The notes under the pieces were generated by a model. The model saw only the letters and a list, made by a program, of their open reading frames with translations. It had not been told where the DNA came from and did no database searches. Positions 25,071 through 45,132 of a DNA stretch of 64,000 nt are shown here, in pieces. Numbering within the stretch: the stretch's first letter is position 1; the number at the start of each line of letters is the position of its first letter. Source of the stretch: Desulfobulbaceae bacterium (GTDB lineage Bacteria > Desulfobacterota > Desulfobulbia > Desulfobulbales > Desulfocapsaceae). The DNA is taken from contig WSXV01000001.1 of the NCBI GenBank assembly GCA_009773475.1, forward strand, positions 124,001-188,000, given 5' to 3'. Position numbers and translations under genes: made by a program.

Positions 25071-25104
25071 TTCTAATCCAATCCTAACAATCCCGTGCTA
25101 TTGT
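25071..25104 (+). promoter_or_regulatory. Putative Pho box and -10 of phoR
   Basis: Two 11-bp direct repeats, TTCTAATCCAA (25071-25081) and TCCTAACAATC (25082-25092), then 6 bp and TATTGT (25099-25104). The same repeat, spacing and hexamer type occur upstream of pstS, which supports PhoB binding. Inferred from this two-gene comparison only. Confidence 0.6.
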
Positions 25105-25148: not shown

Positions 25149-26933
25149 ATGCAGCACCGACGTCTTTTCTGGCTTCTCTATCCAAGTCAGCTCCTCATTA
25201 CCCTGGCCGTTCTTCTCGCCTTTACCTGGATCGGAATCTCGGCCATCCACACCTTTCAAGTCAACGAGAAGGCAAATGATCTGGAGGAGCGGGCCCATCT
25301 TGTAGCCGGCAGCATTTATCAGTATCTGGTCAGCGATGACAGGGCCGGTCTGGAACTCTTTACTCGGGTGGCTGGCCAGAGGTCCGGCACCAGGCTGACG
25401 GTGATTGCCCTGGATGGCAAGGTCCTAGCCGATTCAGAAGAAGATCCGGCCCGTATGGAAAATCATCAAGACCGGCCCGAGGTCATCGCCGCCCAAGCCG
25501 GAAAGATTCTTCCCACCCTACGTTTCAGTCAGACCCTGCAGCAGAAACTGATGTATGTCGCCATTGCCTTGCAACATGATGGCCACACCAAAGGCATTCT
25601 GCGCATGGCCGTGCCGCTAGCCGGTATCGATCAGGAACTTGCCGTGGTCTATCGAAAAATGATCTGGGGCTGTCTGCTGGTGCTGCTGGCGGCGGCCCTG
25701 GTTGCCTGGTTTGTGGCTCGTCGGATCAGTCGGCCGCTGGAGCAGATGAAGCTGGGGGTCGAGCGCCTGGCCATGGGCGATTTCGGCATGCGCATCCGGG
25801 TGGAGGGGGCGGAAGAGATGGCCAGTCTGGCCCGCGCCCTCAATGAAATGTCGGCCCAGCTTGATTCCCGGATTCAGACCATCGTCGGCCAGCACAGCCA
25901 GTTGAAGGCGGTCTTTGCCAGTATGGTGGAGGGCGTGATCACCGTGGATATCGAGGAAAGGATCATGGATGTCAACCAGTCCGGCGCGAAGCTGCTTAAT
26001 ATTGATCCTGAAAAAGTCCGGGGGAAGAGTATCCTGCTGGCCGTGCGCAATACCCATCTCCAAAATTTCGTCAAAAATGCCCTGGCCTGCTCCACTCCGC
26101 TGGAAGGTGAGTTCAGCAGTCGGCTTGGTGCGGATGGCCAGGAAAAATATTTTTACGCCCATGGGGCACGATTGCACAACGCTCAGGGACAGACCACCGG
26201 CGCCCTGATTGTTATCAACGATGTGACCAAGCTGCGTCGCCTGGAGTCGATCCGCCGTGATTTTGTGGCCAATGTCTCCCATGAGCTGAAAACGCCGATT
26301 ACCTCCATTGAGGGGTTTTCGGAAACCTTGCTCGATGGCGCCCTTGATGAACCGGAAGATGCCCGCCGATTTGTCGAGATTATCAACAAACAGGCCTCGC
26401 GGCTGCACGCCATCGTCGAGGATCTGCTGGCCCTGTCGCGGGTGGAACAGGGGGCCAAGCAGGAGGAGATTGCCCTGCACAAGCTGCCGGTGCTCGATGT
26501 GTTGCAGTCGGCCATTCAGAGTTGCAACCCAAAGGCGTCGGCGGAAGAGGTGGCGGTCAGTCTGGTCTGTGAACAGGGGATTGTCGCTGAGATTAATCCG
26601 GCCCTGCTGGAACAGGCGGCGATCAATCTTCTCGATAACGCCATTAAATACAGCGGCAAGGGCAGCGTGATCCGGGTGGTGGCGGAAAAGCAGCCAGGCG
26701 AGGTGTTGATCCGGGTCTGTGATAACGGCGTCGGGATTGCCAAACAGGATGTGGAGCGCATCTTTGAGCGATTCTATCGGGTGGATAAGGCCCGCAGCGC
26801 CAAAATGGGCGGCACCGGCTTAGGGCTCTCCATCGTCAAGCATATTGCTGCCGCCCACCATGGCCATGTCTCGGTGGAGAGCAGTCCCGGCAAAGGCAGC
26901 ACCTTCACCCTGCATTTGCCGATGAAGGATTGA
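25149..26933 (+). CDS. phoR: Phosphate-regulon sensor histidine kinase PhoR
   Basis: A 594-residue membrane kinase. Two hydrophobic helices (about 8-31 and 173-195) flank an extracytoplasmic sensor region; then come HAMP, a PAS domain (about 258-365), HisKA with the phospho-accepting His in ANVSHELKTPI, and HATPase_c with DNAIKYS, DNGVGI and GTGLGLSIVKHI. Its domain order matches PhoR of phosphate regulons. The likely partner phoB lies about 17.5 kb away, beside pst and phoU. A Pho-box-like repeat precedes the gene, so autoregulation by PhoB is plausible. Shine-Dalgarno AAGGGA lies eight bases before the ATG. Confidence 0.88.
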   Translation: MQHRRLFWLLYPSQLLITLAVLLAFTWIGISAIHTFQVNEKANDLEERAHLVAGSIYQYLVSDDRAGLELFTRVAGQRSGTRLTVIALDGKVLADSEEDPARMENHQDRPEVIAAQAGKILPTLRFSQTLQQKLMYVAIALQHDGHTKGILRMAVPLAGIDQELAVVYRKMIWGCLLVLLAAALVAWFVARRISRPLEQMKLGVERLAMGDFGMRIRVEGAEEMASLARALNEMSAQLDSRIQTIVGQHSQLKAVFASMVEGVITVDIEERIMDVNQSGAKLLNIDPEKVRGKSILLAVRNTHLQNFVKNALACSTPLEGEFSSRLGADGQEKYFYAHGARLHNAQGQTTGALIVINDVTKLRRLESIRRDFVANVSHELKTPITSIEGFSETLLDGALDEPEDARRFVEIINKQASRLHAIVEDLLALSRVEQGAKQEEIALHKLPVLDVLQSAIQSCNPKASAEEVAVSLVCEQGIVAEINPALLEQAAINLLDNAIKYSGKGSVIRVVAEKQPGEVLIRVCDNGVGIAKQDVERIFERFYRVDKARSAKMGGTGLGLSIVKHIAAAHHGHVSVESSPGKGSTFTLHLPMKD

Positions 26934-34231: not shown

Positions 34232-35557
34232 TTAGAACTTGTAGGTTACGTCAAACTGATAGGTCTGAACATCTTCTACAGTAGTGAGTTTTGTAACACC
34301 AGCATCTTCAATATTCTCAAAGTTGTAGTAGGTGAAATCGAGGGCCCAGTTCTTGGTAACATCGTAGCCAACACCGGCCTTGTGACCCTGAACGTTGGTG
34401 GTTCCTGCAACGGCGTTGGCAATGTCTACGTAACCACCATAGATGGAGTCGGCTTCAACAACGGAATAGGAATAGGCAAAGCGAACCTGATCCATTTTAC
34501 CGCTCAGGCCAAGGCTCCAGCCCATATCGTTCCCCTCAGCATCCTCCCCTAAACCCATAATCGCTGATTGGGTAACTCCTTTGTCGCTATCGGCAGCAAA
34601 ATTCAACCATCCCTGACCATAGAGCTTGAGGTCAACCGGTCCGACAGGAAAGCTGACATCACCATAGAGATCGCCAACTTCAACGCTGTAACCACCGAGG
34701 TCAGAAGTTGATCTAGCAATTTCATTCATATAGGCCTGGTCAACCATATGGTAGCCGGCAGCCAAGGTGTATTTCCCTTTTTCGCTGAACTTGTCCTTGT
34801 AGCCGACCTGTCCGATATACGCCAAACCGGTATTCTCACCGTAGACATCATCTACCAAATCTCCTTTGTCTATATTCGTAACTTTTGCGCCATAGGCACC
34901 AGCCACGGCAAAGATGCCGGTTTCTTTACCATAGGCAACGGTTGCACCCTGGGGTCGCAGATCACTATCCCAGAATATCCAAGACCATGTATAAGGGACT
35001 GGGGACTGGCCAAGAATTACCGCATAGTCGCCAAAGGTGTGCTTGGCATAGGCATAATCAAGGTTGATTTCACTGTGGTCAAATTCGTTTACACCACCCC
35101 AGGCATCCTCAGGGCTTCTGTTGGCTGAAGCAATATTGGTGGCAATTCCTGCGCCGATGGTCCAGTTTTCTGCCTTGTTCTGCCATACTCCACCCAGACG
35201 GAATCTGGTACTGAAACCATCCTGGCTAGCATCTGAATCATTGTAGAAGTTGTAGCTTTTAGTCTGGAAACGCTCACGAAGGTCACCGGTGAGGGTTACG
35301 CCATCGATAAAGGCGTTGCCGGCCATAACATAGCCTTTTTTCTTCTCAAGGGCATCAAGACGGGTAGCAAGGGTAGGATCTGATTTCTGACCCTTGAGCA
35401 TATCGATCTCGGCCTGTTGTTTGGCAAGTTGGGCGCGCAGGTCAGACATTTCGCGAGACATATCATCGCTAACTTTCTTTCCGCCACCGGCCAGAACTGC
35501 GCTGGGCAGGTACAGGCAGCAACCAAGAGCTACAACTGTTGATAATACTTTTTTCAT
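34232..35557 (-). CDS. Outer-membrane porin with N-terminal coiled coil
   Basis: 441 residues including the initiator. Signal peptide (MKKVLSTVVALGCCLYLPSAVLA), then a short coiled-coil segment (DMSREMSDLRAQLAKQQAE, about residues 32-57) like those anchoring porins to peptidoglycan. A beta-barrel of alternating aromatic strands follows, ending in the outer-membrane signature YQFDVTYKF. The start at 35557 is supported by AAGGAG; the longer frame to 35629 adds no signal. It is divergent from pstS, so a phosphate or anion channel is tempting, but no Pho box was found before it and the function remains a guess. Confidence 0.82.
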   Translation of the reverse strand: MKKVLSTVVALGCCLYLPSAVLAGGGKKVSDDMSREMSDLRAQLAKQQAEIDMLKGQKSDPTLATRLDALEKKKGYVMAGNAFIDGVTLTGDLRERFQTKSYNFYNDSDASQDGFSTRFRLGGVWQNKAENWTIGAGIATNIASANRSPEDAWGGVNEFDHSEINLDYAYAKHTFGDYAVILGQSPVPYTWSWIFWDSDLRPQGATVAYGKETGIFAVAGAYGAKVTNIDKGDLVDDVYGENTGLAYIGQVGYKDKFSEKGKYTLAAGYHMVDQAYMNEIARSTSDLGGYSVEVGDLYGDVSFPVGPVDLKLYGQGWLNFAADSDKGVTQSAIMGLGEDAEGNDMGWSLGLSGKMDQVRFAYSYSVVEADSIYGGYVDIANAVAGTTNVQGHKAGVGYDVTKNWALDFTYYNFENIEDAGVTKLTTVEDVQTYQFDVTYKF

Positions 35558-35970
35558 TGTGTTCTCCTTTCTCCGTAAGGGGTTGGTACAGTTACTTCTC
35601 AACGATTCATTTCTGCCCACGATGGGCAATTGTCAATCTGTTGATATCCGTTTATACAATTTTTTATACTATTGCAAGGGCGAAATGTTTTTTTTTTTAC
35701 TTTGCCCTCTTTTTTTTTGGTGGTCCATGGGGAAATGGTTGGGGCGCAGGGATTTTTATAGGATTTTTGGATGTGCTGGTTGTGCGTGAAAGGCTTGGAT
35801 TGATTGGGATTTCAGGGGAGGGATGGGGGGGCGTAGGGGCGAGTTTTTGAGTGAGTGAAAATAATCCTGGAAAAGTAAAAAAATTATGTTGTCGAACTTG
35901 AATTTTTAGTGGCTTACCGATTATTGATAGCGTTATGCCACTGTCGGCGGTTGGGAACGAGGTTGAAATG

Positions 35971-36039
35971 GTAGGTTGGGTTTCAACCCGATGGCAGGGG
36001 TAGATTGCAGGCCTTTTGTCGGGTTGAAACCCGACCTAC
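35971..36039. repeat. Interspersed repeat family B, copy 2
   Basis: Inverted repeat with arms GTAGGTTGGGTTTCAACCCG and GTCGGGTTGAAACCCGACC; centre differs from copies 1 and 3. Confidence 0.9.
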
Positions 36040-36087
36040 CGTTGTTGTATACTGGGAAGAGCAGGGTGGTGGGGTTGTTTTTTGGGA

Positions 36088-36140
36088 CTGGATGCGGCGC
36101 ATCCGGGATGCATTCCCATGCGGCGCATGGGAACGAGGTT
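36088..36140. repeat. Family D palindromes (GGATGCGGCGCATCC / TTCCCATGCGGCGCATGGGAA)
   Basis: Two short palindromes side by side. The same pair recurs at 38028-38085 and 54013-54072; single or partial units occur near 28664, 30880, 32245, 37677, 40650, 44282, 61518, 61724 and 61830. They form a high-copy, short REP-like family. Confidence 0.85.
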
Positions 36141-36202
36141 AAGCCGGAGTTTGTTGAGATTCAACGTCTGGCGCGTGGGAGAACGAGGTTGAAATAACCA
36201 TC

Positions 36203-36285
36203 CCGTCATTCCCGAGTGCTTTTATCGGGAATCCAGTTTGGTAAATTCAGGGTGTTCTGGATTCCCGCCTGCACGGGAATGAAGG
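36203..36285. repeat. Interspersed repeat family E, copy 2
   Basis: Same layout as copy 1: CCGTCATTCCCGAGTGC, ATCGGGAATCC and GGATTCCCGCCTGC with its inverse. Confidence 0.8.
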
Positions 36286-36373: not shown

Positions 36374-36418
36374 TCCTAATCAAATCCTCATCATATCCTA
36401 ACAAAGGGCAGATATGGT
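36374..36418 (+). promoter_or_regulatory. Putative Pho box and -10 of pstS
   Basis: Three contiguous 11-bp direct repeats: TCCTAATCAAA (36374-36384), TCCTCATCATA (36385-36395), TCCTAACAAAG (36396-36406). Six bases later comes TATGGT (36413-36418). The 11-bp period equals that of known PhoB sites, and phoR has the same arrangement with the same 6-bp gap. Confidence 0.65.
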
Positions 36419-36484: not shown

Positions 36485-37480
36485 ATGAAGATGAATAAAA
36501 GCTTGATCGGAAAGGCAGTGAAGAAGGTAATGCTGGCCGGTTGTCTGGTGACGGTGACCGCTTCCATGGCCATGGCCGCCATTGAAGTTGATCCCAAAAT
36601 TGCTCCCTATCAAAAGGTCAGCGGGGTGTCCGGTAATGTGGACAGTATCGGCTCCGACACCCTGAATAATCTGATGGCCTATTGGGCTGAGGGATTCCGC
36701 AAGGAGTATCCTAATGTCCGCATCCAGATCGAAGGAAAGGGTTCCACCACCGCGCCTCCGGCCCTGATTGCCGGAACCGCCCAGCTTGGACCCATGTCCC
36801 GGCCGATGAAGAAAGATGAAGAAGATGCTTTTGTTGCCAAATATGGCTATAAAGTAACCGGTATCAGTGTGGCCTTTGACTCCCTGGCGGTTTTTGTAAA
36901 CAAGGATAACCCGATCAAGGGCCTGTCCCTTCCACAGGTGGATGCCATCTTCTCCAAGACCCATAAGGGCGGTATTGCTGAAGATATCGCGACCTGGGGA
37001 CAACTTGGGCTCACCGGTGAATGGGAGAAACTGCCGATCAGTCTGTTTGGCCGTAACTCCGCCTCCGGCACCTACGGATTTTTCAAGGAGCATGCCCTGG
37101 CCAAGGGTGACTATAAAGATACGGTAAAAGAACAACCGGGTTCAGCCTCCGTGGTTATGGGTGTGACCGAGGATCGGTCCGCCATCGGTTATTCCGGTAT
37201 CGGCTACAAGACCTCCGGCGTCAAGGCGGTTGCCCTCAGCGCCAAAGAAGGTCAGGAATTTGCCGAGGCCACCTATGAAAATGTACTGGCCGGCAAGTAT
37301 CCCCTGTCACGCAGCCTGCTGATCTATGTTGCCAAAGAGCCCAATAAGCCCCTGCCCGCAGTGACTGCTGAGTTCCTGAAGTTTATCCTCTCCAAGGAAG
37401 GTCAGGAGATCGTGGTGAAAGATGGGTTTATGCCGTTGACCCCTGAGGTTATTGCCAAGGAATTGGCAAAACTGAATTAG
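36485..37480 (+). CDS. pstS: Phosphate ABC transporter substrate-binding protein PstS
   Basis: A 331-residue periplasmic phosphate-binding protein. Signal peptide of about 35 residues (hydrophobic core VMLAGCLVTVTASMAMA). Phosphate-binding signatures: GSDTLNNLM, EGKGSTTAPPALIAG, LGPMSRPM and GRNSASGTYGFF. GGAG precedes the ATG at 36485. It leads the pst cluster but is followed by 800 bp of repeats before pstC, so high pstS and lower downstream expression is likely. Confidence 0.94.
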   Translation: MKMNKSLIGKAVKKVMLAGCLVTVTASMAMAAIEVDPKIAPYQKVSGVSGNVDSIGSDTLNNLMAYWAEGFRKEYPNVRIQIEGKGSTTAPPALIAGTAQLGPMSRPMKKDEEDAFVAKYGYKVTGISVAFDSLAVFVNKDNPIKGLSLPQVDAIFSKTHKGGIAEDIATWGQLGLTGEWEKLPISLFGRNSASGTYGFFKEHALAKGDYKDTVKEQPGSASVVMGVTEDRSAIGYSGIGYKTSGVKAVALSAKEGQEFAEATYENVLAGKYPLSRSLLIYVAKEPNKPLPAVTAEFLKFILSKEGQEIVVKDGFMPLTPEVIAKELAKLN

Positions 37481-37842: not shown

Positions 37843-37999
37843 TGTAGGATGGGCAAAGGCCGATAGGCCGTGCCCATCATGTCTGCTCGAGGAATTGATG
37901 GGCACGCTTCGCTTCGGAGTCTCCACTTCGTTTCGCTTACCTGCCCATCCTACGGTTGCCTACGGTTGCCTACGGTTGCCTACGGTTGCCCATCCTACG
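37843..37999. repeat. Family C, copy 3, ending in a 10-bp tandem repeat
   Basis: Full nested palindrome. Its right end is extended by four tandem copies of TACGGTTGCC (37951-37990) before a last CATCCTACGG, probably slippage inside the element. Confidence 0.85.
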
Positions 38000-38281: not shown

Positions 38282-40510
38282 ATGCAGAAACTTGACAGGC
38301 AGTTCATTCAAAAGGTTCGTCGTCAGGATCGGATAGCCACCTGGGTTATTACCATGGGCGGTCTGCTGGTTATTGTCAGCGTCATTGCCATTCTGGTACT
38401 GATTGTGCGGGTGGCGGTGCCGCTTTTCCAGCCTGCCAAATCCAATATCATCCATCAATTTGCCCTGGCCACAAGCCCTGAGTCGGTGCTCGCCATGGGC
38501 GTCGATGAGTATCGGGAAACCGGCTACGTCCTTGATGATCAGGGAATTTTTACCTTTTATCATCTTGCCGACGGGGTGCCCACGTTGCGCCTGGACGGTG
38601 GTGCGGACAAGGATGTCGCGCTTAAATCCATCGAACTGCACCGGAACAACCAGTACACCATGCTGTGGGCTGATAACAGCGTTACCATGACCGAGGTCAA
38701 CTTCCGTTTTCTCTTTGACCAGGCAGGAAAGCGGACGATCAAGCCCGAGATTGTCACCCTGGGTGGCTTTGCCCCGGAGGTGAAAGATACAAAAATAGTT
38801 GCGGTCAATGTCCGTCACTCGGATGACGGACGACTGACCAAGGTTGTGTTGGTGGATGACAACAGTTTCCAGGTGACCCAGCAGCTCGTGACCGTGGATT
38901 TTATCGGTAACGAGAAGAAAGAGTCCTTCGCCTTTGTCATCAAAGATGAGATCCCCGGCAGGATCAAGGCCTTTACGGTGGACGAAAAGGGCAACACCCT
39001 GTTTGTCGGCACCGATACCGGCAGTGTTCTGCGTTGGGATATCAGCGAGACCGGCGAGGCCAAATTGACCGATAATGTCGTGGCTACTACCGGCAATCAG
39101 TCCATTACCGCCATGACCATGGTCTTTGGCGATGTGTCGGTGGCGGTGGGGGATGCCTCCGGCGGCCTTTCCACCTGGAGCCGGGTGTGGAGCGGTGAAG
39201 GGGCCGCTAAGACCCAGAAACTTCGTAAGATTCACCAGTTGACCAGCCATAAAAACGCTGTCTCCCATGTCGTCGCTTCACGCCGTACCAAGACCATCGT
39301 CAGTATCGGGGCCGAAGGCGTGGTCCATTTCGATCACATGACCAGTGAGAATCATCTCCTGGAGATCGAACATGATCTTGCCCTGTTTGCCATAGCCGGC
39401 AACGATAACAGCCTTATCGGCGTTGACCGGAAGAAAAATCTGGTGGTCTGGAATATCGACAACCCCCATCCGGAGGTGAGCCTGAAGACCCTGTTCGGCA
39501 AGGTCTGGTATGAAAGTTATAACCAGCCCGAGTATGTCTGGCAGTCCTCATCCGGCAACGATGATTTCGAGGCGAAATTCAGCCTGGTGCCGCTGCTCTT
39601 CGGCACCATCAAGGGCACCCTGTACGCGATGATTTTCGCCGTTCCGCTATCCATCTTCGGCGCGGTGTACACCAGCCAGTTCACCACTTACGGCTTCAAG
39701 AAAAGGATTAAGCCGATGATTGAGATCATGGCCTCGGTACCCTCCGTGGTCATCGGCTTTCTTATTGCCCTGTGGCTCGGACCGTTGATTGAAAGAAATA
39801 TCCTGGCCCTTATCCTCTTCACCATGCTGCTGCCGCTGATGCTGGCCGCCATGATGATGCTTATCCAGCCCTTTTACAAAACCCCGACCCTGCAGAACCG
39901 ATGCAGCGGCTACGAGTTCCTGCTTCTGGTGCCGGTGGCGCTGCTGTCGGTGTGGTGTTCCGGCTGGCTGTCGCCGGTCGTGGAAGGGGCGTTCTTCAGT
40001 GGCAATTTCCTGCAATGGCTCTACGATGATTTAGGGATTCGCTACGATCAGCGCAATAGTATCATCATTGCCTTTGGTCTCGGGATTGCGGTGATTCCGA
40101 TCATCTTTTCCATCACCGAAGACGCCATCTCCAATATCCCCAACAGTCTCACCGGCGCCTCGCTGGCCCTGGGCGCAAGCCGCTGGCAGACGATCTGGCG
40201 GGTGGTGCTGCCGTCGGCCAGCCCCGGCATCTTTGCTGCGATTATGATCGGATTCGGCCGGGCCGTGGGTGAGACCATGATTGTCCTGATGGCCACCGGC
40301 AATACCCCGATCATGGATTGGTCGATTTTTAACGGCATGCGCACCCTGTCGGCAAATATCGCCGTGGAGATCCCGGAGGCGCCGCTGAACGGAACCCTGT
40401 ACCGGGTCCTGTTCCTCTGCGCCACCCTGCTCTTTGCCCTGACCTTTATCCTCAACACCGGCGCCGAGGTGATCCGCGAACGGCTGAGAAAGAAATATGG
40501 GAGATATTAG
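38282..40510 (+). CDS. pstC: Phosphate ABC transporter permease PstC, extended form
   Basis: 742 residues, over twice the usual 320. After a first helix (about 18-44) comes a 370-residue non-membrane domain with repeated beta-strand/WD-like segments (GVPTLRLDGG, NTLFVGTDTGSVLRWD, GGLSTWSRVW, RTKTIVSIGAEGVVHFD), a probable beta-propeller. The membrane permease domain follows (about 440-735) with the EAA-type loop (SLALGASRWQTIWRVVLPSA). Such enlarged PstC proteins are known in proteobacteria; the extra domain's role is not. No Shine-Dalgarno is obvious. The stop codon abuts an F-family element. Confidence 0.92.
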   Translation: MQKLDRQFIQKVRRQDRIATWVITMGGLLVIVSVIAILVLIVRVAVPLFQPAKSNIIHQFALATSPESVLAMGVDEYRETGYVLDDQGIFTFYHLADGVPTLRLDGGADKDVALKSIELHRNNQYTMLWADNSVTMTEVNFRFLFDQAGKRTIKPEIVTLGGFAPEVKDTKIVAVNVRHSDDGRLTKVVLVDDNSFQVTQQLVTVDFIGNEKKESFAFVIKDEIPGRIKAFTVDEKGNTLFVGTDTGSVLRWDISETGEAKLTDNVVATTGNQSITAMTMVFGDVSVAVGDASGGLSTWSRVWSGEGAAKTQKLRKIHQLTSHKNAVSHVVASRRTKTIVSIGAEGVVHFDHMTSENHLLEIEHDLALFAIAGNDNSLIGVDRKKNLVVWNIDNPHPEVSLKTLFGKVWYESYNQPEYVWQSSSGNDDFEAKFSLVPLLFGTIKGTLYAMIFAVPLSIFGAVYTSQFTTYGFKKRIKPMIEIMASVPSVVIGFLIALWLGPLIERNILALILFTMLLPLMLAAMMMLIQPFYKTPTLQNRCSGYEFLLLVPVALLSVWCSGWLSPVVEGAFFSGNFLQWLYDDLGIRYDQRNSIIIAFGLGIAVIPIIFSITEDAISNIPNSLTGASLALGASRWQTIWRVVLPSASPGIFAAIMIGFGRAVGETMIVLMATGNTPIMDWSIFNGMRTLSANIAVEIPEAPLNGTLYRVLFLCATLLFALTFILNTGAEVIRERLRKKYGRY

Positions 40511-40625
40511 AGGCCGTTATAAAAAGAGCAAAGCTTTTCTTGCTCTTTTTATAACGGCCTATTATGCCGCATCCAGAAAACAGCAATCTTTACCGCTGTT
40601 TCCTGGTGTGGCGAGTGGCAAATCA
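40511..40625 (+). repeat. Family F two-hairpin element, copy 1
   Basis: Starts at the base after the pstC stop. Hairpin 1 is a perfect 21-bp stem (40511-40531 with 40540-40560), loop AGCTTTTC. A linker ATTATGCCGC leads into an imperfect hairpin 2 (AAACAGC/GCTGTTT core, 40569-40611). Related copies are at 53681, 53836 and 59590, with degenerate ones at 59715 and 49147. Confidence 0.75.
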
Positions 40626-40696
40626 AATCTGCCGATGGTTGTCGTTGCATCTGGTTCCCATGCGCCGCAAGGGAACCAGATGAAAATACTCTGCGC

Positions 40697-40731
40697 AAGG
40701 CACTTATCCCGTTTATTGGGGTTAGTGCCTT
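40697..40731. repeat. Family G tail fragment, copy 4
   Basis: AAGGCACTTATCCCGTTTAT followed by TGGGG, matching the constant tail of family G, here closed by its own inverse TTAGTGCCTT. The variable hairpin is missing. Confidence 0.55.
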
Positions 40732-40803
40732 ACAAAATGACTCTGTTCCCCGGTATTGGAAGAACGTGTTGGATAAATCACCTGTTTTTATAATGGATAT
40801 GCA

Positions 40804-42399
40804 ATGGCGAATATAAAATTCTGGCGGCAGGGAGAACCGTATGTTTGGGGCACCGGCCTGGCGCTTTCACTGGTGCTGACCCTGACCTTTACCCTCCTCT
40901 ATGTGGTGATCTCTAACGGGGTGTTGGTTTTCTGGCCCAAGAAGGTGACCCTGGCAACCCTGCATGATGGCCGTCATATGCTTGGCGAGGTGGTTCAGGA
41001 AGAAAACAATCCCAGTACCGGCAAGGCGCGGCAGCAGTTTAAGATCGGGAACCGCGATCTGTATGGCCTTGATTTCAAGTGGGTGGACACCCATGCGGTG
41101 AAGGAGTTCAGCGTGCCGGGCGCGGCCTATGTCCTTGAGCGACAGGAGCATGGAAATTTTTATGGCTTTCTTAAGGAACTGAAAACCCCCGGTCTGGTCC
41201 TTCCTGCAGAGGATAAGGCGAATTTGCAGGCGGCCATGGAGCTCATCGAACCGCAACGCGGTGAGGTGGATAAGATCGACCGGAAAATTGCCGCCATCAA
41301 CGCCACCATGGAGCAGAAAAACCACAAGCTGGCCCGTCTGCGCTATCAGAAGGAAGAAAATACGCCGGAGGCTGTGGCCTTGCAGGACGATGTTCTGAAG
41401 ATCAGGGCCGAGTTTGAGCGGCTGGTGACCCTGCACGGCACCAAGCGCGCCATCGTCTCGGCCAACGAGGCGGTTTTCACCGATGCCGATGGGCGGGAAA
41501 AGAGTATTGTGCTGGCTGATATCGTCCGTTGTTATCAGCCCAATGCCATGTCCTGGGGTGCCAAACTCTGCTATTACGGGACCCGCATCCACGAGCTGCT
41601 CTTTGCCGAGCCGCGTGAGTCCAACACCGAGGGCGGCCTGTTCCCGGCAATCTTCGGGACGATCATGCTGATCTTTCTGATGAGTATCTTCTCCTTTCCC
41701 CTGGGCGTTATCGCCGGCATCTATCTGCGTGAGTATGCCAAGGACGGCTATCTGGTGAAGATGGTGCGCATTGCGGTGAACAATCTGGCCGGCATTCCCT
41801 CCATTGTGTACGGGATCTTCGGCCTTGGCTTCTTTGTCTATGGCATCGGCGGCCAGATCGATCAGTTCTTTTTTGCCGAGAAACTGCCCACCCCCACCTT
41901 TGGTACCGGCGGCATCCTCTGGGCCAGTCTGACCTTGGGGCTGCTCACCGTGCCGGTGGTGATCGTGGCCACGGAAGAGGCCTTGGGCGCCATTCCGCCG
42001 GGAATCCGGGAAGGATCTCAGGCCCTGGCCGCCACCAAGTTTCAGACCCTGACCAGGATTCTTCTGCCCATGGCCTCGCCCGGGATCTTGACCGGCTTTA
42101 TTCTGGCCATGGCCCGCGCCGCCGGAGAGGTTGCGCCGCTGATGATTACCGGGGTGGTCAAGCTGGCGCCGGCCCTGCCCCTGGATGGAACCTTTCCTTT
42201 CCTCCATCTTGATCGCAAGTTCATGCACCTGGGCTTTCATATCTATGACATCGGGTTTCAATCCCCCAATGTCGAGGCGGCAAAACCGATGGTCTATGTG
42301 ACGACCTTTTTGCTGATTTTAATCGTCCTGATCCTGACCAGTACCGCGATTATGCTGCGTAACAGGATGCGCGAGCGCTTTTCCGTGGCCGATTTATAG
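40804..42399 (+). CDS. pstA: Phosphate ABC transporter permease PstA, extended form
   Basis: 531 residues. N-terminal helix (about 18-42), then a 200-residue insert with a charged coiled-coil stretch (about 140-220, EPQRGEVDKIDRKIAAINAT onward), then the PstA permease domain (about 275-525) with the EAA loop EGSQALAATKFQTLTRILLP and a final helix. The insert matches the enlarged partner PstC; both probably pack together outside the membrane. Lies 293 bp after pstC across an F element. Confidence 0.92.
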   Translation: MANIKFWRQGEPYVWGTGLALSLVLTLTFTLLYVVISNGVLVFWPKKVTLATLHDGRHMLGEVVQEENNPSTGKARQQFKIGNRDLYGLDFKWVDTHAVKEFSVPGAAYVLERQEHGNFYGFLKELKTPGLVLPAEDKANLQAAMELIEPQRGEVDKIDRKIAAINATMEQKNHKLARLRYQKEENTPEAVALQDDVLKIRAEFERLVTLHGTKRAIVSANEAVFTDADGREKSIVLADIVRCYQPNAMSWGAKLCYYGTRIHELLFAEPRESNTEGGLFPAIFGTIMLIFLMSIFSFPLGVIAGIYLREYAKDGYLVKMVRIAVNNLAGIPSIVYGIFGLGFFVYGIGGQIDQFFFAEKLPTPTFGTGGILWASLTLGLLTVPVVIVATEEALGAIPPGIREGSQALAATKFQTLTRILLPMASPGILTGFILAMARAAGEVAPLMITGVVKLAPALPLDGTFPFLHLDRKFMHLGFHIYDIGFQSPNVEAAKPMVYVTTFLLILIVLILTSTAIMLRNRMRERFSVADL

Positions 42400-42708: not shown

Positions 42709-43497
42709 ATGGCACAATCCGACAAAGCCATCATGTCCATTGAAAACCCGCAGGTCGTGGTTGAACATCTGGACCTTTATTATGGCGAAAGTCAGGCGCT
42801 CAAAGACATGAGCTTTGGCATCCCCAAGAGCCAGGTGACCGCCCTGATCGGTCCTTCCGGCTGCGGCAAGTCCACCTTTCTGCGCTGTATCAACCGGATG
42901 AATGATCTGGTCGAGGGCCTGCGGATCGAAGGGCGGATTGCCATTGACGGCGAGAATATCAATGACCCCTCCTTAGATGTTATTGAGCTGCGGCGAAAGG
43001 TGGGCATGGTGTTCCAGAAGTGGAATCCTTTCCCGAAAACCATCTACGAAAATGTTATCTATGGTCTGCGTATCGCCGGTATCAAGGATCGCGCGATGCT
43101 TGACCAGTCGGTGGAACAGAGTCTGAAGCGGGCAGCCCTGTGGGACGAGGTGAAGGACCGGCTCAATCAGTCGGCCATGGGCCTTTCCGGCGGCCAGATG
43201 CAGCGGCTCTGTATTGCCCGGGCGGTGGCGGTTAATCCTGAAATCATCCTGATGGATGAGCCCTGCTCGGCCCTTGATCCGCGCTCAACCTCCAGGATTG
43301 AAGACCTGATTCGGGAGCTGCGGGGCGAATATACGATTATCATCGTCACCCACAATATGCAGCAGGCGGCCCGGATCTCGGACTTCACCGCCTATATGTA
43401 TCTGGGGGAACTGGTGGAGTACGGCCCGACCCAGAAGTTGTTCACCGTCCCCGAACGCAAAGAAACCGAGGATTACATCACCGGCCGCTTCGGTTGA
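42709..43497 (+). CDS. pstB: Phosphate ABC transporter ATPase PstB
   Basis: A 262-residue ATPase powering phosphate import. Walker [11 protein letters not shown]-loop [10 protein letters not shown], signature [14 protein letters not shown], Walker [13 protein letters not shown] and the H-loop [13 protein letters not shown] are all intact. GAGG precedes the ATG. phoU follows after 51 bp. Confidence 0.97.
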
Positions 43498-43548: not shown

Positions 43549-44259
43549 ATGGCACGCGACATCCAGACTGAAATTGAAACCCTGAAAGGCCATATTGTGT
43601 TCCTCGGCACCGTTGTTGAGGAGAACATGGAATGCGCCATCAAGGCCCTGATGGAAAAAAACCCTGAACTGGCCCATCAGGTGATGCAGACCGACCGCAT
43701 TGAAATCGATCATATCGAAATCGACATTGAAGAGGAGTGTCTCCATATCATGGCCCTGCTCCAGCCGGTGGCCAGTGATCTGCGCTTTCTGGTCACGGTG
43801 CTCAAGGTCAATAATGACCTGGAACGGATTGGCGATCTGGTGGCGAAAATTGCCGACAAGGTGCTCCTGCTTTACAAGGAGAATCCAACGGTCTTCTTGT
43901 CCAGCGAGATGGAAGTTCCGGATAAACTGCACGGGATGTTTGACAAGGCGCTGTGGATGTTCAAACAGACCATGGAGGCCTTTATCAATGAGGATACCGA
44001 CCTGGCCTATAAGGTTTGTTTGGCCGATCCTGAGGTTGATCTGGCCAAGCGCCTTATCTATCAGGAGCTGGAGGAGATTATCTTGGTTGATCCTTCCAGG
44101 AATGTTTTTTTGGCGAAAATGCTCAGCGTGGCCAGAAGCACGGAACGTATTGCCGATCATTGCACTAATATCTGCGAAGACATTATCTTTATGGCCCAGG
44201 GCAAGATTATTCGTCACTACGGCGGGAAGCACAACTCGAAAGAGCTGAAGCTGACCTGA
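43549..44259 (+). CDS. phoU: Phosphate signalling protein PhoU
   Basis: 236 residues forming two three-helix PhoU repeats. Metal-binding motifs of the form ExxxD are seen (NNDLERIGDLVAKI and ARSTERIADHCTNI). PhoU links PstB activity to PhoR and keeps the kinase off when phosphate is plentiful. AGGAG lies upstream of the ATG. Confidence 0.96.
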   Translation: MARDIQTEIETLKGHIVFLGTVVEENMECAIKALMEKNPELAHQVMQTDRIEIDHIEIDIEEECLHIMALLQPVASDLRFLVTVLKVNNDLERIGDLVAKIADKVLLLYKENPTVFLSSEMEVPDKLHGMFDKALWMFKQTMEAFINEDTDLAYKVCLADPEVDLAKRLIYQELEEIILVDPSRNVFLAKMLSVARSTERIADHCTNICEDIIFMAQGKIIRHYGGKHNSKELKLT

Positions 44260-44430: not shown

Positions 44431-45132
44431 ATGGCAAGAGAGACAATCCTTATCGTTGAAGATGACGAAAATATCCAGCAGCTTGTCGGGTATAACCTGG
44501 CGAAGGCCGGATACAGTGTGATCTATGCGGAAAACGGCGAGCAGGCCCTGGTCAGTGTGAAGCGGGATGCGCCGGATCTGATGGTGCTCGACATCATGCT
44601 GCCCAGTCTGAACGGGTTCGAGGTGTGCAAGATTCTGCGCAAAGACCCGCAGACCAAGACCCTGCCCATTATTATGCTCACTGCCAAGGGTGAGGAGAAT
44701 GATGTGACTGCCGGTCTGGATCTGGGGGCGGACGATTACATCACCAAGCCCTTCAGCCCGAAAATCCTTGTTTCCCGGATTAAGGCGGCCTTGCGTCGTC
44801 GGGAAGAATTGTCGGCCGACGATGGAGCAGGGGCTAAGGACGCGCTGATCAAGATCCATGATATCGCCATCGATCCAAAGCGCTACGAAGTGGAGGTTGG
44901 TGGGGCTCTCGTGGCCCTGACGGTGACCGAGTTCAGTATTCTTGATCTGCTGGCGCGTAGGCCCGGCTGGGTCTTTAGTCGTCAGCAGATTATTGATGGG
45001 GTGCGGGGCTATGACTATGTGATTACCCCGAGGGCGGTGGATGTCCAGGTCTTCGGGCTCAGGAAGAAGCTGGGGGATTCCGGCGAGTGCATCGAAACCG
45101 TGCGCGGTATCGGGTATCGGATGAAGGGATAG
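44431..45132 (+). CDS. phoB: Phosphate response regulator PhoB
   Basis: 233 residues: receiver domain with the acidic pair in VEDDEN, phospho-acceptor in LMVLDIMLP, Thr in MLTAKG and Lys in ITKPF, then an OmpR-type winged helix (about 135-230, RPGWVFSRQQIIDGVRGYDY). The start at 44431 has GGAG seven bases before it; the frame runs back to 44380 without support. It is downstream of phoU, while its likely kinase phoR is at 25149. Confidence 0.93.
   Translation: MARETILIVEDDENIQQLVGYNLAKAGYSVIYAENGEQALVSVKRDAPDLMVLDIMLPSLNGFEVCKILRKDPQTKTLPIIMLTAKGEENDVTAGLDLGADDYITKPFSPKILVSRIKAALRRREELSADDGAGAKDALIKIHDIAIDPKRYEVEVGGALVALTVTEFSILDLLARRPGWVFSRQQIIDGVRGYDYVITPRAVDVQVFGLRKKLGDSGECIETVRGIGYRMKG

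Follow-up and report, generated by a model that had tools for sequence, protein, structure and literature searches.

The leaders of pstS and phoR in this Desulfobulbaceae bacterium carry tandem arrays of 11-bp direct repeats which, judged from their sequence and setting, most likely (probability about 0.9) represent the operator of a PhoB-type activator that takes the -35 place of both promoters and mediates induction under phosphate starvation. Both arrays lie within the 64,000-nt stretch of DNA analysed here, hereafter called the window (Table 1). Direct reading reveals three contiguous units before pstS (TCCTAATCAAA, TCCTCATCATA and TCCTAACAAAG, in this order) and two before phoR (TTCTAATCCAA and TCCTAACAATC, followed by CCGTGC). 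As an earlier sequence-only reading of this DNA had stated, each array ends exactly 6 bp before a hexamer of the form TATKGT, which is also the distance found at the pstS promoter of Escherichia coli. The consensus TCCTAAYMAAN, which the same reading assigned to both leaders, describes real sites but is idealised, as the three pstS units match it at 11, 9 and 11 of 11 positions and the phoR pair at 19/22. Base 3 is C in every unit of both arrays. The assignment as candidate Pho boxes is supported by the period, the copy number, the fixed distance to the -10-like hexamer and the location in front of pstS and phoR (and of a porin gene next to pst in 10 relatives), as well as by the presence of a PhoB candidate linked to phoU.

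Table 1. Features of the candidate Pho boxes and surrounding genes (positions in the window).
Feature	Position	Strand	Basis or remark
phoR candidate Pho box, two contiguous 11-bp units	25071..25092	+	direct read, conservation, cross-prediction
-10-like hexamer TATTGT, phoR promoter, 6 bp 3' of the phoR box	25099..25104	+	
phoR/pnpS-type sensor histidine kinase	25149..26933	+	NCBIfam PnpS 394.4 bits (cut-off 400); phoR_proteo 300.2 (cut-off 334.2)
porin-like gene, divergent from pstS	34235..35629	-	protein start and position resemble the relatives' porin; itself without Pfam match
pstS candidate Pho box, three contiguous 11-bp direct-repeat units	36374..36406	+	direct read, conservation, cross-prediction
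spacer GGCAGA, 6 bp, last pstS unit to hexamer	36407..36412	+	
-10-like hexamer TATGGT, pstS promoter	36413..36418	+	YAnnnT in 16/16 genus leaders
pstS, phosphate-binding protein	36485..37480	+	TIGR02136 above cut-off
pstC	38282..40510	+	
pstA	40804..42399	+	
pstB	42709..43497	+	
phoU	43549..44259	+	
phoB-type response regulator	44431..45132	+	TIGR02154 236.9 bits, under cut-off 296.2; best PhoB match of the genome

The pstS gene is followed by pstC, pstA, pstB, phoU and the gene for the PhoB-type regulator, and the gene for the PhoR-type kinase starts approximately 11 kb before pstS. The genome offers a cognate PhoB candidate behind phoU; however, both the PhoB and the PhoR match score below the curated NCBIfam cut-offs, which counts against the Pho-box reading. 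The closest named relatives of the window PstS are metagenome-assembled genomes, several of which are labelled Desulfocapsa or Desulfocapsaceae. Several further observations concern the pst cluster itself. The gap between pstS and pstC measures 800 bp, which is long for a pst operon, and four tandem copies of CTACGGTTGC were seen by eye within it (37950–37989). PstC (742 aa) and PstA (531 aa), encoded at 38282–42399, are much longer than their E. coli counterparts, and PstC shows a weak WD40-like match before its permease part (E 5e-5, far below the family cut-off).

The agreement of the two leaders had been described as hard to obtain by chance. Counts of the bare string are unremarkable in this respect: single TCCTAAYMAAN units with up to two mismatches occur 124 times in the window, as opposed to a shuffle mean of 141, and two-unit arrays with up to three mismatches number four in the 3.03-Mb genome, all of them forward, as opposed to five for a backward control (2 forward, 3 reverse). 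Bare-string enrichment, showing no excess over shuffles or backward control, was rejected as an uninformative test. Three of the four two-unit matches correspond to the pstS and phoR sites, and the fourth (C14:42378), where the opposite reading frame resembles ribosomal protein S4 by eye, was set aside as a chance match. The arrays rise above chance through cross-prediction between promoters and across genomes, conservation and the fixed 6-bp spacing. When a weight matrix is trained on pstS leaders from 13 other genomes (12 genus members and one from another family, excluding the own genome and the one closest to it), its top-scoring position among 127,934 on the two strands is pstS itself, and the phoR site comes second at 23.8 bits, versus 11.0 bits for the best unrelated position. 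Conversely, a matrix derived from eight distinct phoR sites (own and two closest genomes left out) finds pstS at 23.8 bits versus 12.0 bits.

Enrichment before phosphate genes throughout the genome, which had been named as a check on the proposed motif, is seen only in weak form. Clear sites in the own genome, based on the two-unit scan and a sequence-model scan of 150 of 669 first-look candidates, are those at pstS and phoR, and no box was found before a second PstS-like gene. Inspection by eye likewise revealed no box in the leaders of pstC, pstB and phoB. The sequence model comprises 26 sites and was scanned over 17 genomes, with 150 first-look candidates scored per genome; as the 26 sites come from pstS and phoR, its strong scores at these two genes are circular, and the pstS site of one genome (G004) scores weakly (E 0.02). 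Among the candidates scored, a single site besides pstS and phoR falls below E 0.003 (G016:C12:123), and the others are weaker, including an own-genome match (C16:40477, E 0.033) before the gene for a 570-aa protein without Pfam match. Arrays of two to three similar units at G005:C87:16295 (L117) and G016:C12:123 (L111) might represent a further PhoB target. The former lies about 300 bp before the gene for a small helix-hairpin-helix protein, and the latter has a contig end nearby.

Conservation was assessed across 17 genomes of the genus, 16 of which contain a close PstS and were scored (the PstS match of G009 is distant). All 16 pstS leaders exhibit the three-unit array, with 28–31 of 33 consensus matches and YAnnnT at +6. 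A phoR gene was found in 15 of the 17 genomes, and two units with YAnnnT at +6 precede it in 13 of these 15. In the remaining leaders, no box was found before phoR of G006, and the phoR box of G014 is split by an inverted-repeat insertion. As judged by eye, this insertion (L048, approximately 1360–1430) interrupts the second Pho unit, is flanked by a short duplication, CTAAC, and resembles a small mobile element by which the box was disrupted.

The porin gene divergent from pstS, identified as Porin_5 (Pfam) in G003, is preceded by an in-register array of as many as five units in 10 of the 15 genus genomes examined, all ten with YAnnnT at +6; the units of these arrays include spellings such as CGGTAAC. 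The array was not found at the porin-like gene of the window genome, whose product has no PDB sequence match, or at that of G004, which was recognised by eye. No porin start was recognised by the script within the region examined for G006, G013 and G014, so that these three genomes say little; in G014, an array followed by a hexamer at +6 is present at a distance of some 900 bp. Two palindromic repeat elements were seen by eye between the porin gene and pstS in the window (35966–36285), at the location of the porin Pho box in ten relatives, and insertions at this place may have removed the box.

On a wider scale, 80 named pstS loci were collected, of which 78 extend far enough upstream; 61 of the 78 contain a strong pair of units, picked blind to base 3 and hexamer. 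YAnnnT occurs at exactly +6 in 39 of the 61 leaders, and no other offset between 0 and 13 occurs more than five times; many of these genomes are closely related, so that the 39 leaders do not correspond to 39 independent events. Among 16 regions before PstS-like genes at family and order level, a box is present in four (G021, G024, G038 and G053), and no convincing box was found in the other 12, probably because many of the matched PstS-like genes sit inside an operon. That the repeats are chance A/T-rich sequences before ordinary sigma-70 promoters would be in line with the bare motif counts (four versus five), but the +6 peak, together with conservation and cross-prediction, speaks strongly against this explanation and renders it hardly credible.

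The repeats would be read as operator half-sites for the PhoB-type regulator of a Desulfocapsa-like bacterium. At low phosphate, the PhoR-type kinase would phosphorylate PhoB, whose monomers are predicted to occupy the array in head-to-tail order, each on a single 11-bp unit, where a -35 element would otherwise stand. Tandem PhoB would then replace the -35 contact and bring sigma-70 polymerase to the hexamer that follows after 6 bp. The expected outcome is that pstS is switched on at low phosphate, probably together with pstCAB-phoU-phoB, provided that a common transcript spans the repeat-bearing gap behind pstS. The phoR gene would be switched on as well, amounting to positive feedback. The spacing of PhoB sites to core promoter elements is described as strict, and PhoB of E. 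coli is also able to repress, depending on the position of its site (PMC10294691). The latter would allow for a repressor operator or a dual-use site instead of an activator site; this is very unlikely, however, with box and hexamer spaced exactly as in the pstS promoter of E. coli.

A real operator might also be read by an OmpR-family regulator other than the one linked to phoU, as the genome encodes three further full-length OmpR-type matches to the PhoB model and the phoB leader lacks a visible box. Such an assignment is unlikely in view of the genes behind the arrays, namely pstS, phoR and, in ten relatives, the porin beside pst, and of the phoU-linked regulator being the best PhoB match. 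Furthermore, the spelling of the box and the recognition helix of the phoU-linked regulator covary over 53 PhoB/leader pairs, though with shared ancestry.

The phoU-linked PhoB has the recognition helix PRAVDVQVFGLRKKL, which may bear on the spelling of the box. In the PhoB-DNA structure of E. coli, Arg201 hydrogen-bonds a guanine, while Thr194 and Val197 touch thymines (PMC3973317; PMC3264566). The window PhoB contains Ala194, Val197 and Gly201 (E. coli numbering), the glycine standing at the place of Arg201. The contacted guanine is inferred to be base 3, because of which G survives in leaders paired with Arg201, and the altered spelling without G at this base would follow from the loss of Arg201. 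Over the 53 pairs, for which base 3 of two units per leader was entered by hand, residue 201 goes with base 3 nearly clade by clade, with exceptions. Arg201 is associated with G,G in 15 of 16 pairs, the exception being E. coli pstS, whose last two units have T and G (three of its four units have G). Gly or Ala201 is paired with C,C in 28 of 34 leaders, with C and T in three and with G in one unit in another three, and Ser, Asn or Pro201 with T,T in 3/3.

Several properties of the 53 pairs define how these counts are to be read. YAnnnT is missing at +6 in six Gly/Ala rows (L138, L152, L173, G184, G255 and G259) and in all three Ser/Asn/Pro rows (G054, G074 and G109), the choice of pair is ambiguous in G021 and G038, and the pair of G255 was read from an array below the usual score. 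In several genomes, phoB is not located beside pstS and the best match was taken instead. The set leaves out G176, which has Arg201 but yielded no site, G237, in which no PhoB match reached the threshold (ATGTAAC/ATTTAAC), the family- and order-level genomes without recognised box (12 regions) and leaders without a paired PhoB. In G255 (G255:C57, L288), pstS is preceded by four in-register units reading nnCTGAC or nnCTTAC, with C at base 3 and G or T at base 5, and the PhoB match of this genome carries Ala201.

On the tree, the 15 Arg201 rows other than E. coli fall into one clade and all Gly/Ala201 rows, together with one Ser201 row, into another with weaker support (83/78). As the residue classes are confined to few clades, the pairing rests on few events, and with an additional long-branch warning on the tree, independence of the covariation was rejected. 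An exact rule linking residue and base was rejected as well, given that G021, G045 and G053 combine Gly201 with G at base 3 of one unit, the latter two with full +6 geometry, and that the porin arrays of the genus include CGGTAAC-like units. A looser proposal, put forward here tentatively and with more doubt than confidence, is that residue 201 acts as a switch setting base 3, with G expected for Arg, mostly C for Gly or Ala, and T for Ser, Asn or Pro, such that this group would have respelled its small Pho regulon in step with one or two recognition-helix residues. Its odds are lowered by the cyanobacterial regulator SphR, in which the contact residues of PhoB are reported to be highly conserved and whose box nevertheless has T at base 3 (PMC1906773); if this conservation covers Arg201, the residue 201 rule fails in cyanobacteria. 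The TCCTAAY spelling may follow a change in the regulator itself.

Pho boxes are known as 11-nt direct-repeat units with a consensus that varies by species (PMC4415409), and the new element is the TCCTAAY variant in Desulfocapsa relatives. Titles and abstract openings in the open-access literature revealed neither a Pho box described for these relatives nor a paper pairing residue 201 with base 3. The arrays provide a usable Pho-box model for Desulfocapsa-like bacteria, whose Pho sites would be missed by scans for CTGTCAT, and a compact example of a regulator and an operator that may have changed jointly, with the geometry preserved.

The departure from the enterobacterial CTGTCAT, noticed in the sequence-only reading, holds for the genus, whose units are TCCTAAY-like. 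The pstS promoter of E. coli K-12 (NC_000913.3, direct read) shares the architecture of the window site, with four tandem 11-bp units, the last being CTGTCACCTGT, followed by TTGTCC and then TATTTT; it differs in the spelling of its units and in the Thr194 and Arg201 of its PhoB, as opposed to Ala and Gly (numbering from PMC3264566 and PMC3973317). The pstS leaders of Geobacteraceae and other Desulfuromonadales, found here as pairs of CTGTAAC, likewise agree in unit length and +6 hexamer but have G at base 3, and the PhoB encoded upstream of pstS carries Arg201 in 13 loci. In Desulfovibrio vulgaris, the source of the only sulfate-reducer PhoB box met with in the open-access literature surveyed, PhoB (DVU1083) recognises direct repeats of (c/t)GT(n)AC, consisting of a 6-bp repeat and a 4-bp spacer, at targets including a pst operon (PMC3333781); in the alignment made here, this box retains G where the window has C. 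A close spelling is that of the cyanobacterial SphR box CTTAACCT, reported to occur in three or more tandem copies separated by 3-bp linkers (PMC1906773). It shares the 11-bp period, the three units and much of the sequence (CCTAAYCA in the window) but belongs to another phylum, and its 7-mer CTTAACC carries T at base 3 in place of the C of the window.
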